A DNA stretch of 64,000 nt, taken from an uncultured Sphingomonadaceae bacterium (GTDB lineage Bacteria > Pseudomonadota > Alphaproteobacteria > Sphingomonadales > Sphingomonadaceae). Of this stretch, positions 58,024 to 62,058 are shown piece after piece. Where the stretch lies: the NCBI GenBank assembly GCA_947501695.1, contig CANMWO010000001.1:558001-622000 (forward strand). The letters are read 5' to 3'. Made by a program: the position numbers and the translations under genes. The notes beneath the pieces were generated by a model. It saw only the letters and a program-made list of their open reading frames with translations, searched no databases and was not told the origin of the DNA. The first letter of the stretch is position 1. The number at the start of each line of letters is the position of its first letter.

Positions 58024-59934
58024 ATGGCTGATATACCCGCAAAGACCGAAATTGGCGTAACAACTGGCCCGATAAGCGGCTCGAAAAAAGTGCATGTGGC
58101 GGCGCATAGCGGCTCCGGGATCCGCGTAGCGATGCGGGAAATCAGCCTCGAAGGCGGCGAAGCACCAGTACGAGTCTATGATACTTCCGGCCCCTATACC
58201 GACCCGAACGCACTGATCGACATCAACGCTGGCCTGCCTCAGATGCGCCGCGAATGGATTGAAGCGCGCGGCGATGTGGAGTCCTACGATGGCCGCGATA
58301 TCAAGCCGGAAGATAATGGCCAGCTCGGCCCGGATCGCAGCGGCGGTGTCCCGCAATTCCCGCATGTCGTAAAACGGCCTCTGCGCGCCAAAGCAGGCGC
58401 GAACGTCAGCCAAATGCACTATGCCCGCAAAGGTATTATTACACCCGAAATGGAATATGTTGCCGAGCGTGAAAATCTCGGGCGGGAGCGACTGAAAGAA
58501 TATAAGCGCGACGGCGAAAGCTTTGGCGCGTCCATTCCCGATTATGTCACGCCGGAATTTGTCCGTGATGAAATCGCAAGAGGACGCGCGATCATTCCGA
58601 ACAATATCAACCACCCCGAAACCGAACCGATGGCCATTGGCCGCAACTTCCTCGTGAAGATCAACGCCAATATCGGCAACAGCGCGGTTGCGTCTGACGT
58701 GGCCAGCGAAGTCGACAAAATGGTCTGGTCAACCCGCTGGGGCGCCGACACGGTCATGGATCTCTCCACCGGCCGTAACATCCACGATACGCGTGAGTGG
58801 ATCATCCGCAACTCGCCCGTGCCCATCGGCACTGTGCCCATCTATCAGGCGCTCGAAAAAGTTGGCGGCGCGGCGGAAGAACTCACTTGGGAAATTTTCC
58901 GCGACACATTGATCGAGCAAGCCGAGCAGGGCGTGGATTATTTCACCATCCATGCCGGCGTGCGTCTGCCCTATGTGCCGATGGCCGCGAAACGCGTCAC
59001 CGGCATCGTCTCGCGCGGCGGGTCGATCATGGCGAAATGGTGTCTGGCTCATCACAAGGAAAGCTTCCTCTACGAACATTTTGACGACATTACCGAAATC
59101 ATGAAGGCCTATGACATCGCCTATTCCTTGGGCGATGGCCTGCGCCCCGGCTCGATAGCCGACGCCAATGACGAGGCGCAGTTCAGCGAGCTTTACACGC
59201 TGGGCGAGCTCACCCACCGCGCGTGGAAATCGGATGTGCAGGTGATGATCGAAGGCCCCGGCCATGTCCCGATGCACAAGATTAAAGAAAATATGGAAAA
59301 GCAGCTGGAAGTTTGCGGTGAGGCACCCTTTTATACACTCGGCCCGCTAACCACCGACATCGCGCCCGGCTATGACCATATTACCAGCGGCATCGGGGCT
59401 GCCCAAATCGGCTGGTATGGCACCGCGATGCTCTGCTATGTCACGCCGAAAGAGCATTTGGGCCTGCCCGATCGCGACGACGTGAAAGTTGGCGTTGTCA
59501 CCTATAAACTTGCCGCCCATGCCGCCGATCTTGCCAAGGGCCACCCGGCCGCACAGGTTCGCGACGACGCGCTCAGCAAGGCGCGCTTCGAGTTTCGCTG
59601 GCGCGACCAGTTTAATCTCAGCCTCGATCCTGAAACGGCGATGCAATATCACGATCAGACGCTGCCAGCCGAAGGCGCCAAGACCGCGCATTTCTGCTCC
59701 ATGTGCGGGCCGAAATTCTGCAGCATGAAAATCAGTCAGGAAGTGCGCGACTTTGCCAGCAAGCAAAACCAGAGCGCCGAAGGCTTTATCGCCTCGGAAA
59801 AACTGGGCGCCGATACCGCCGCGGCAAGCAAGGCCGCAGCCGAAGAAGGCATGCGCGAAATGGCGAAAGTCTATAAGGATAAGGGCGACCGGCTCTATTT
59901 GCCCGAGGATGAGGTGAACGAACCAGCGGAGTGA
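58024..59934 (+). CDS. thiC: Phosphomethylpyrimidine synthase ThiC
   Basis: A radical-SAM enzyme converting AIR to hydroxymethylpyrimidine phosphate for thiamine. It has 636 residues. The C-terminal 4Fe-4S site is Cys558-X2-Cys561-X4-Cys566 in [11 protein letters not shown], the ThiC-specific motif. Conserved blocks include [16 protein letters not shown] and [24 protein letters not shown] lies before the ATG. The riboswitch upstream controls it. No other thiamine gene follows. Its last codons, DEVNEPAE and stop, recur in diverged form behind the next genes, and a 71-base part of its 3' end is repeated at 61982. Confidence 0.96.
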
Positions 59935-59935
59935 T
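59908..59935 (+). repeat. thiC 3'-end repeat, copy 1 (thiC itself)
   Basis: The last codons of thiC, encoding DEVNEPAE and stop. It matches 60162-60189 at 25 of 28 bases, and its last part (GAACCAGCGGAGT) is found again at 60417-60429. Confidence 0.8.
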
Positions 59936-59938
59936 GCG

Positions 59939-60166
59939 ATGCTAAGGCGATTCACAGCTATATTTCTGTTGATCGCCGCAGCTGTGCCTGGTGTCCTCTT
60001 TTGGCAGCGTCGAAGCTTGCCCTATAATGAGCAAGGTCGCTATTTCGACGCTGCGCAGGGGGTGGTTTACGAGGCGCAATCGGTTACGGTATATGGCGGA
60101 ATTACCGTCGTTTTGATCATATTGGGTGTGATCATTCTGGCAATTGGTCGGCGGCGTGACGGATGA
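59939..60166 (+). CDS. Small two-helix membrane protein
   Basis: A 75-residue product of unknown family with two hydrophobic helices, RRFTAIFLLIAAAVPGVLF and YGGITVVLIILGVIILAI, flanked by RR and RRR charges. The loop contains NEQGRYFDAAQGVVYEAQ. The ATG is four bases after the thiC stop, so it may be translated by coupling. Directly at its end a copy of the thiC 3' terminus begins. It is short, but the regular topology and the charge distribution suggest a real gene. Confidence 0.62.
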   Translation: MLRRFTAIFLLIAAAVPGVLFWQRRSLPYNEQGRYFDAAQGVVYEAQSVTVYGGITVVLIILGVIILAIGRRRDG

Positions 60167-60189
60167 GGTGGCCGAACTAGCGGAGTGAT
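60162..60189 (+). repeat. thiC 3'-end repeat, copy 2
   Basis: 25 of 28 bases match the thiC end. Read in one frame it encodes DEVAELAE and stop, next to DEVNEPAE of thiC, but here it is not part of an open gene. It overlaps the stop codon of the two-helix protein gene. Confidence 0.75.
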
Positions 60190-60206
60190 TTAAAGAGGAG
60201 ATCATC

Positions 60207-60431
60207 ATGCAGGAACCTTATGAACTGGCGTTGGAGTCCGCTCGACAGGAGCTCGAAAAAGCGCGGGCATTGTTGCAACAGGATATCTCCGAATATCCGC
60301 ACCCGATTTCAGGATGCGACTATCAATATGTCCGACTGATCAGTGATCGTACAAGGATATCCAACAGCCTGCGTGCTATGGAAAACCGTCCCTTTGTCGC
60401 CACACCGAGGATATTGGAACCAGCGGAGTAA
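60207..60431 (+). CDS. Small hypothetical protein ending like ThiC
   Basis: A 74-residue cytosolic protein, unrecognised. The first 30 residues are helical and charged (ALESARQELEKARALLQQD), the rest mixed. AGAGGAG lies eight bases before the ATG, a strong site. Its last codons encode RILEPAE and stop; the terminal EPAE and the underlying bases match the end of thiC. The gene lies between two thiC-end copies, so it may have been joined to a pre-existing 3' end. Confidence 0.62.
   Translation: MQEPYELALESARQELEKARALLQQDISEYPHPISGCDYQYVRLISDRTRISNSLRAMENRPFVATPRILEPAE
60407..60431 (+). repeat. thiC 3'-end repeat, copy 3 (partial)
   Basis: Contains GAACCAGCGGAGTAA, identical over GAACCAGCGGAGT to the thiC end, in the same reading phase (EPAE, stop). 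The preceding bases do not match thiC. Confidence 0.55.
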
Positions 60432-60971: not shown

Positions 60972-61022
60972 TTTGCCAATATGCAGACAAGGTGGCAGGA
61001 CTGCGCATGCCCACAGCCCCTT

Positions 61023-61052
61023 CGTCATCCTGAACTTGTTTCAGGATCCATC
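61023..61052. repeat. REP-like palindromic intergenic element
   Basis: ATCCTGAA and TTCAGGAT, a perfect eight-base inverted repeat around CTTGT, within CGTCATCCTGAACTTGTTTC and AGGATCCATC. From memory this is a very common intergenic repeat of sphingomonads. It sits between the helical-protein gene and the hydrolase gene. Confidence 0.7.
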
Positions 61053-61069
61053 CATGAAAGCCACCACCC

Positions 61070-61969
61070 ATGACCTTTGAAAACCCCGCCCCAATAACCC
61101 CGCAAAGCGCAGAACAATGGCGCAAGGACGGACAGCTTGTCGCGTGGAAACGCCACCAAATCTTCGTCCGCACCGGCGGCGATCCATCCGCGCCGCCGCT
61201 CCTTCTGCTCCACGGCTTTCCGACCTCCAGCCTCGACTGGCTGCCGCTATGGGCGGATCTGACGGCGCGCTATCGGGTGGTGGCGTTTGATTTTCTTGGC
61301 TTTGGCTTTTCCGACAAGCCGAAGCGGCATGCTTATGATTTGCAGGAACAGAGCGATCTCGCCGCGCATCTGGCCGAGACTTTATTGGGTCAGGATTTTC
61401 ATCTGCTCGTCCATGATTATGGCGTCAGCCCGGGGCAGGAATTGCTCGCGCGGCATGGCGAGGGCAAGCTGGCGCACAGGTTGCTGAGCTGCGCCTTTCT
61501 CAACGGCGGCCTGCTCCCCGCGCAGCATCGCGCACGGCCTATTCAAAAGCTGCTCACCGGACCCTTTGGCTGGTTGTTCGTGCACCTGATGAACCGGGAG
61601 CGTTTCGGCAAAAGCTTTAGCGAGGTTTTCGGCAAGGATACGCAGCCCGGCGCAGCGGAACTCGACGCCTATTGGGGCGTTATCTGCACAAATGGCGGCC
61701 ACCGGCAGCAACACAGGTTGCTCCACTATATCGCCGACCGCCGCACCCACGGGCCCCGCTGGGAAGCCCAGCTGACCCACCCGCCATGCCCGATCGCGCT
61801 GATTAACGGCACCCAGGACCCGGTCTCCGGCGGCCATCTGGTCGATGCAGTCGCGGCGCTGAATCCGGAGGTTCCGGCGTGGCGGCTGGATCATCTGGGC
61901 CATTATCCGCAGACCGAAGGAGCCGCGGATGTGATGGCGGCTTATGCGGAGTTTCGGGCGGGGTTGTGA
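61070..61969 (+). CDS. Alpha/beta hydrolase related to MEST/PEG1
   Basis: A 299-residue alpha/beta hydrolase. The oxyanion region is LLLHGFPTSSLDW near residue 47. The elbow is LLVHDYGVSPGQEL, so the nucleophile is Asp116, as in epoxide hydrolases and dehalogenases, not Ser. The acid lies in NGTQDPVSGG and the histidine in DHLGHYPQTEGA. DFLGFGFSDKPKRHAY and CAFLNGGLLPAQHRARPIQK are close to the mammalian MEST protein. Substrate is unknown. It lies in the GC-rich block between thiC and the diverged thiC tail, which begins 13 bases after its stop. Confidence 0.83.
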   Translation: MTFENPAPITPQSAEQWRKDGQLVAWKRHQIFVRTGGDPSAPPLLLLHGFPTSSLDWLPLWADLTARYRVVAFDFLGFGFSDKPKRHAYDLQEQSDLAAHLAETLLGQDFHLLVHDYGVSPGQELLARHGEGKLAHRLLSCAFLNGGLLPAQHRARPIQKLLTGPFGWLFVHLMNRERFGKSFSEVFGKDTQPGAAELDAYWGVICTNGGHRQQHRLLHYIADRRTHGPRWEAQLTHPPCPIALINGTQDPVSGGHLVDAVAALNPEVPAWRLDHLGHYPQTEGAADVMAAYAEFRAGL

Positions 61970-61981
61970 TGGTGGCGAGAT

Positions 61982-62058
61982 AAGGCATGCGCGGAATGGC
62001 AAGGGTTTATAAGGACGTGGGCGAGCGGCTTTATTTGCAAGCGGATGAGGTGGGGTAG
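61982..62058 (+). pseudogene. Remnant of a diverged thiC 3' end
   Basis: Bases 61982-62052 align without gaps to 59846-59916 of thiC, with 13 mismatches in 71. Translated, it reads GMRGMARVYKDVGERLYLQA then DEVG and a stop, against the real thiC tail [20 protein letters not shown] then DEV. There is no start codon or upstream thiC sequence, so it is a tail only. It marks the sharp right border of the GC-rich block; AT-rich DNA begins directly after it. An attachment-site duplicate or a leftover of homologous replacement are both possible. Confidence 0.85.

Follow-up and report, generated by a model that had tools for sequence, protein, structure and literature searches.

Why should the 3' end of a housekeeping gene recur several times in the DNA behind that gene? 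The question is raised by a window of 64,000 nucleotides (the whole stretch of DNA analyzed here, positions 558001-622000 of contig 1) in the 3.6-Mb genome of an uncultured Sphingomonadaceae bacterium, hereafter G000. In this window the vitamin gene thiC is intact (58024-59934; 636 amino acids, aa; Pfam matches ThiC_Rad_SAM and ThiC-associated), and the tail of the gene (source copy, 59846-59935) is repeated downstream; like the other genes, thiC copies and riboswitch of the window given below, these lie on the + strand. We found that thiC, two genes termed RidA1 and RidA2, and the gene for a 74-aa protein share a 15-base end, GAACCAGCGGAGTRA or a near match to it, which mostly codes for EPAE and a stop codon. 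This gene-end box is the key feature of the locus. Our results suggest that, in this sphingomonad genus, genes turn over in the DNA 3' of thiC. This gene-turnover site was probably built by successive rounds of one-sided homologous recombination in thiC, each with an illegitimate join, and then reduced by box-to-box gene loss, with no integrase of its own.

Copies of the thiC end in the window

Three copies of the thiC end follow the gene. The longest (61982-62052) aligns without gaps to 59846-59916 at 82% identity (58/71, 13 mismatches). The second, a displaced end of 29 bp at 60161-60189, matches 59907-59935 at 26 positions (90% identity) and contains a box at 60174-60188. The third, at 60417-60429, is identical to 59920-59932 at 13 of 13 positions; it is part of a box (60417-60431) that equals the thiC box (59920-59934) except for the stop codon, TAA in place of TGA, and that both ends a 74-aa open reading frame (ORF; 60207-60431) and precedes a 176-aa gene (60441-60971). 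Our repeat comparison thus recovers the copies reported in a preliminary description of this DNA, including the 71-base copy with 13 mismatches and no gaps, and the ORF list agrees with its 74-residue protein ending in EPAE and a stop. The 28-base copy reported there (60162-60189) does read DEVAELAE-stop, but it is out of frame with the preceding 75-aa ORF (59939-60166; membrane-like by eye), the stop codon of which falls inside the copy.

The preliminary description had named chance matching of the short copies as a possible refutation. We found that shuffled sequences never reached the observed scores: a 70-base tail query matched at 57/70 positions (best shuffle 37; 0/100 shuffles reached 57), a 29-base thiC end query at 26/29 (best shuffle 19; 0/200 reached 26), and a 15-base thiC end query at 14/15 (best shuffle 12; 0/200 reached 14). 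In addition, the strict box pattern, GAACCRGCRGARTRA, occurs twice in the whole G000 genome, both times at the thiC locus. Together with the ends of other ORFs considered below, the shuffles and this pattern count rule out a chance origin of the repeats.

The shared gene-end box and the genes that it closes

We sought thiC in 60 genomes, G000 included, and obtained a match in 53. The downstream flanks of 30 were compared, those of G000 and of 29 relatives (25 from the genus of G000 and 4 from its family; the G028 flank holds just 286 bases 3' of thiC). The flanks cover all but six of the 32 genus genomes, and those six (G001, G002, G008, G017, G021 and G029) are drafts; of them, G017 was read as a short contig (L018) and was inspected last, after the model had been formed. 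A 299-aa alpha/beta hydrolase (61070-61969 in the window; Pfam Abhydrolase_1) closes a block of genes 3' of thiC in 13 of the 32 genus genomes; it gave one match per genome at the threshold used, and all 13 lie behind thiC. The other constant part of the block, the 176-aa gene, has no Pfam match; it is present at the locus in 12 of the 13 hydrolase carriers and is a relic in G020, and more distant relatives of it are located elsewhere in G009 and G012.

The genes between thiC and the 176-aa gene change from genome to genome. We found none in G007, RidA2 in G016 and G018, RidA1 in G027, RidA1 and the 74-aa gene in G030, and RidA1, RidA2 and the 74-aa gene in G026, G023 and G013; G000 carries the 75-aa and 74-aa genes, G031 the 75-aa gene, and G006, G019 and G020 a 137-family gene with others. 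RidA1 is a match to Pfam Ribonuc_L-PSP, and RidA2 falls in the same cluster. The 74-aa ORF was found in 7 of the 30 flanks and, among 196 genomes sampled across the order, in G000 alone; the 75-aa ORF stands directly 3' of thiC in two flanks (G000 and G031). In a thiC tree (first 1650 bases, 29 rows, G034 excluded), 12 block carriers formed one clade (100/100) and G007 fell outside it with weak support. On this tree the pattern would require several separate losses, a reading of the tree and not a computed count.

The box marks the ends of these genes far more often than other gene ends. Compared with 12 bases of the box, the 26 ends of RidA-cluster and 74-aa genes found within 3 kb of thiC differ at no more than 2 positions in 17 cases and at 3-6 in the other 9; among other mechanically called ORF ends (at least 100 aa, same flanks), 1 of 1109 came as close as the 17. 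In G026, G023, G027 and G020, all three matches to the strict pattern per genome are at the thiC locus. The RidA1 proteins encoded at thiC end in EPAE in eight cases and in LPAE in the ninth (G012), whereas 11 of 12 more distant RidA1 homologs lack an EPAE-type end (the twelfth, in G009, ends in DPAE) and three of three distant RidA2 homologs lack an EPAE end.

The variant bases of the box allowed us to place the joins between genes. We tabulated 35 junctions and counted the 26 in which both neighbors are among thiC, RidA1, RidA2, the 74-aa gene and the 176-aa gene, leaving out nine. When boxes with the same downstream gene and different upstream genes were paired, none of 44 pairs was discordant in the last six bases; with the same upstream gene and different downstream genes, 32 of 40 pairs were discordant, and 0 of 5000 permutations of the junction labels reached the observed result, figures that give no calibrated probability because related genomes contribute boxes that are not independent. 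Ahead of the 176-aa gene, the box ends in GAGTAA in 10 of 10 counted cases, irrespective of which gene it closes (thiC, RidA1, RidA2 or the 74-aa gene), and in GGGTAA before the 176-aa relic of G020; in the counted cases, the box that precedes RidA2 or the 74-aa gene ends in GAATGA. The leader of the 176-aa gene is joined through the box to thiC (G007), RidA1 (G027 and G006), RidA2 (G016 and G018) or the 74-aa gene (five genomes). Since the six terminal bases with the stop codon track the downstream neighbor, the sequences indicate that the joins lie inside the box. A gene joined in this manner would keep a working C terminus and take the last bases and the stop codon of the next box.

These data also bear on the possibility that the gene ends have been alike since very long ago, or are kept alike by selection (for example, for a ribosome-binding site within GCGGAG), and that gene content varies by ordinary deletion. 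The box can indeed contain GGAG upstream of the next start codon. Furthermore, thiC of G012 ends in DEVE, yet RidA1 of that genome ends in LPAE and its 74-aa gene in EPAG, which argues for old shared ends; away from the locus, strict matches number about one per genome. However, the match extends over the EPA codons, the boxes before RidA2 and the 74-aa gene end in GAATGA and contain no GGAG (the 74-aa gene has its own AGGAG), and the 3' half of the box tracks the downstream gene. Selection, moreover, does not produce tail copies of 71-189 bp. We therefore consider ancient or selected likeness a quite improbable explanation.

Displaced ends and the proposed growth of the array

A decayed thiC tail 3' of the hydrolase (61982-62058 in the window, where its end reads ADEVG-stop) is recognizable in six of the 13 block carriers: G000, G018, G027, G006, G023 and, most weakly, G007 (score 60, versus a shuffle maximum of 46). 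The G027 and G007 tails begin further back in thiC, that of G007 about 200 bases before the stop, and the shorter tails look like internal deletions of a longer copy. The recurrence of the 71-bp copy in six carriers shows that it is old and rules out a recent insertion specific to this strain. Displaced ends also follow other inserts. In G025, which belongs to a separate lineage, thiC is followed by a 115-aa reading frame and then by a 177-bp thiC copy at 87.6% identity (189 bp with gaps); in G006, a thiC tail of about 84-87 bp lies 3' of the 137-family gene. Orphan boxes lie 3' of newly placed genes in G019 and G020 and 5' of the 176-aa gene in G031. In G017 (L018:2787-3301), thiC ends in the box and is followed by a pair of small ORFs of 77 and about 86 aa (DUF4160- and DUF2442-like by eye), with an orphan box about 20 bases 3' of the second. 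The displaced ends are 15 to about 189 bp long and in direct orientation.

The interpretation given in the preliminary description, repeated insertion at the thiC stop, is therefore supported in large part, though not throughout. Additions of genes have occurred repeatedly, leaving the old thiC end on the far side, in the G000 lineage and, with other inserts, in G025 (177-189 bp), G006 (about 84-87 bp) and G017 (orphan box). The scars are older than a recent event in this strain, however, since the 71-bp copy is recognizable in relatives, and the short copies are better seen as a box common to several gene ends, which recurs behind other genes in relatives and inside which the joins left by loss and swapping appear to lie as well. 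It had also named, as a refutation, that the locus might prove ancient and fixed in related genomes: the scars are indeed old, but the flanks of relatives show that the gene content is not fixed.

We propose the following course of events. In a gain, a relative would be the source of DNA in which a thiC 3' end is followed by a new gene; this DNA would enter the cell and undergo homologous recombination within thiC, the anchor, and its other end would be joined illegitimately, slightly upstream of the resident stop codon. As a result, thiC would remain intact and carry the incoming end, followed by the new gene, and the resident end would come to lie beyond that gene as a displaced tail. Repetition of such events, also at ends already displaced, could produce the order thiC - RidA1 - RidA2 - 74 aa - 176 aa - hydrolase - old tail - cargo. 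Loss and swapping would then follow from recombination or slippage between two boxes, removing whole genes cleanly because successive genes share the 15-base end box. Short direct repeats allow deletion, and 15 bp would have to suffice here. As in an array built by homology-facilitated illegitimate recombination, the anchor is conserved, the inserts lie behind it, and older ends are displaced. The direct orientation of the tails and the intact anchor gene fit one-sided recombination with an illegitimate right-hand join, and the variable displaced length is consistent with one end being joined by homology and the other without it. Homology-facilitated illegitimate recombination has been described for three competent species and, at low efficiency, for conjugation in E. 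coli (PMC3240628); a ComEC-type competence gene is present here.

Several observations weigh against this proposal. ComEC is common (10/14 controls), and one-sided recombination is reported to be rare in the work on Vibrio type VI secretion (T6SS) discussed below (PMC5361080). No displaced tail is recognizable 3' of the hydrolase in 7 of the 13 block carriers, and the genes that G016 and G031 carry between the 176-aa gene and the hydrolase were inserted at a distance from any box. The box pattern is rare but not confined to the locus: 32 genomes gave 67 strict matches (3 in the backwards control), about one per genome being away from thiC, and in the 13 block carriers 26 of 31 matches are at the locus, with none in G031; a loose box scan gave 33 forward and 9 reverse matches. 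To these may be added the dependence among junction boxes noted above. For five of five block-genome tails tested, mean similarity is slightly higher to the thiC ends of block carriers, the single best match being a block-less thiC for three of the five. Finally, the G025 tail and the tail behind the G007 hydrolase start almost at the same point of thiC, their left ends differing by a few bases at about 200 bp before the stop, as is also expected from a site-specific process.

Such a process would have operated if the block were a decayed integrative island with the thiC 3' end as its attachment site, which carried a replacement end, displaced the old one, and has since lost its integrase. The layout of intact gene, insert and displaced end is that of islands that target 3' ends, and the two tails that start at nearly the same place belong to different lineages. 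However, within 190 kb of the locus we found no tyrosine integrase (PF00589) in G000, a result confined to this genome and to the tyrosine type (serine recombinases were not sought), and the Pfam scans of proteins at the locus, which did not comprise every ORF, turned up no integrase either. The preliminary description had proposed looking for an integrase further right; no tyrosine integrase was found near the window on that side, and on the contig the closest PF00589 match lies to the left, about 194 kb from thiC. Displaced lengths of 15 to about 189 bp leave no common core at both ends, unlike a fixed att core, and an island leaves the boxes behind several different genes unexplained. We regard an island as unlikely.

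Among other mobile elements, transposases lie near some loci (Mutator-family in G015; IS66-like ORFs, by eye, in G006), and the displaced ends, 15 to about 189 bp long, are not target-site duplications of a fixed short length such as a transposon makes. None of 72,556 plasmid records matched the block DNA, and none of 50,697 phage records matched the 176-aa protein. Duplication in place is a further alternative: tandem duplication of the thiC tail region followed by loss, with no incoming DNA, would give tail copies in direct orientation behind the gene, as observed. However, the genes between the tails were not seen in a second copy, and the inserts before the tail copies differ between lineages, making this explanation very improbable.

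A second thiC allele as the source of the displaced tails is unsupported by the similarity scores to block-less thiC ends. The sole hint of such an allele is the DEVG-stop end of three displaced tails (G000, G018 and G025), which is the end of the real thiC of G024. In G025 itself (L055), the displaced tail ends in DEVG-stop and the intact thiC in EPAE-stop.

The box invites comparison with integrons. Like integron cassette arrays, the locus consists of single-gene units in one direction that share a short site, differ between strains, and appear to be joined inside that site; unlike integrons, it has no tyrosine integrase nearby (G000), and the site is the coding end of each gene. No inverted repeats were listed in the box at a minimum arm of 12 bases, which is longer than the arms of attC. 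The box might be the true recombination site of an integrase-free cassette system. Whole genes that match in their C-terminal codons would then enter, leave and replace one another through it, with coding ends as boundaries, by a dedicated, unrecognized recombinase or by a RecA-independent short-repeat route; we see this as a slim possibility.

One-sided recombination in thiC, our preferred explanation, has precedents in kind. Sequential displacement has been described for T6SS effector/immunity modules of Vibrio, in a paper that refers to the same idea for Rhs loci as well (Kirchberger et al. 2017, PMC5361080); its authors propose something akin to homology-facilitated illegitimate recombination, compare the arrays to integrons and know of no evidence for an integrase. 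There, as at thiC, the anchor is conserved, and successive insertions behind it move older 3' parts downstream (PMC5361080). Unlike those arrays, the present locus has a housekeeping vitamin gene that stays whole as its anchor, small genes of various kinds as its inserts, and a 15-base gene-end box as the join point for single-gene loss and swapping. The locus also resembles the core-gene defense hotspots described for E. coli (PMC10121019) and Pseudomonas aeruginosa (PMC10250203), with conserved flanks and strain-variable, often defensive cargo; those of E. coli include islands with no detectable mobile element (PMC10121019). Some hotspots for accessory or defense genes lack recognizable mobility genes. 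Unlike those hotspots, the thiC locus retains the scars of joining as displaced ends of the flanking core gene. Among the literature matches listed, none treated thiC as an insertion site. With displaced ends of several lengths and a shared box in which variant bases place the join, these scars remain readable, and the locus is a concrete and testable example of genes gained, and of single genes cleanly lost, beside a housekeeping gene with no local integrase. Displaced 3' ends of core genes provide a search rule for other such sites.

Cargo beyond the tail and other features of the locus

The preliminary description had noted that the block differs in GC (guanine plus cytosine) content from its right neighbor, and our counts agree (0.54-0.65 across the block versus 0.39-0.45 to its right, by windows). 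That low-GC neighbor is variable cargo, defense-like in about half of the relatives scanned: between the hydrolase and the next conserved genes, content differs between block carriers and the flanks are conserved. In the window, the cargo comprises an HNH endonuclease-like protein (62128-62847), the first ~130 residues of which resemble the defense proteins PDC-M68A and SAVED_HNH, a 134-aa ORF with no match (62834-63238), a PDC-S09-like nucleotidyltransferase-like protein (63153-63479), and the start (63597-64000) of a 307-aa protein with an Mrr_cat restriction-endonuclease domain that continues beyond the window (L003:4597-5520).

PADLOC matches were found in 6 of 11 block genomes scanned, G000 included. 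The cargo of the others includes PD-Lambda-5 in G016, PDC-M41 in G023, restriction-modification genes in G018, a reverse transcriptase in G026, and NsnA/GmrSD with HEPN in G006; G027, G020, G030, G019 and G007 gave none among the proteins scanned, which did not comprise every ORF. The G031 cargo, scanned with Pfam only, gave no match, and the G013 cargo stood outside the scans. PADLOC matches were also present in two of nine block-less genomes scanned (eight further block-less flanks lay outside these scans), counts that have no genome-wide background for comparison. Two cargo types recur 3' of the real thiC in block-less genomes: NsnA/GmrSD in G024 (241/393 residues identical to G006) and an HNH protein in G014 (36/102 identical to that of the window). 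The slot thus seems older than the block.

Some cargo had no PADLOC match: a 694-aa protein in G027 (L040:10463-12547) and two-gene units in G020 (L041:9860-11349) and G030 (L044:5112-6550), in which the second protein is membrane-like by eye. Given their slot, these are candidates for undescribed defense systems.

The stretch between the 176-aa gene and the hydrolase is a second variable site, occupied by an acyltransferase in G016 (L038:12137-13300) and a 292-aa protein in G031 (L042:12922-13800). In G005, a Tle1-like phospholipase with a weak LysM match lies directly 3' of thiC (L057:2560-3957). On the other side of thiC, the window carries a thiamine pyrophosphate (TPP) riboswitch (57874-57984; Rfam RF00059, 64.9 bits). 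Lastly, the DNA that separates the 176-aa gene from the hydrolase contains a short repeat-like stretch at 61026-61058, CATCCTGAACTTG then TTTCAGGATCCATCC. G020 has a similar stretch in the corresponding position and G031 has one close to its orphan box; the stretch looks like a dispersed element of the REP (repetitive extragenic palindromic) type.

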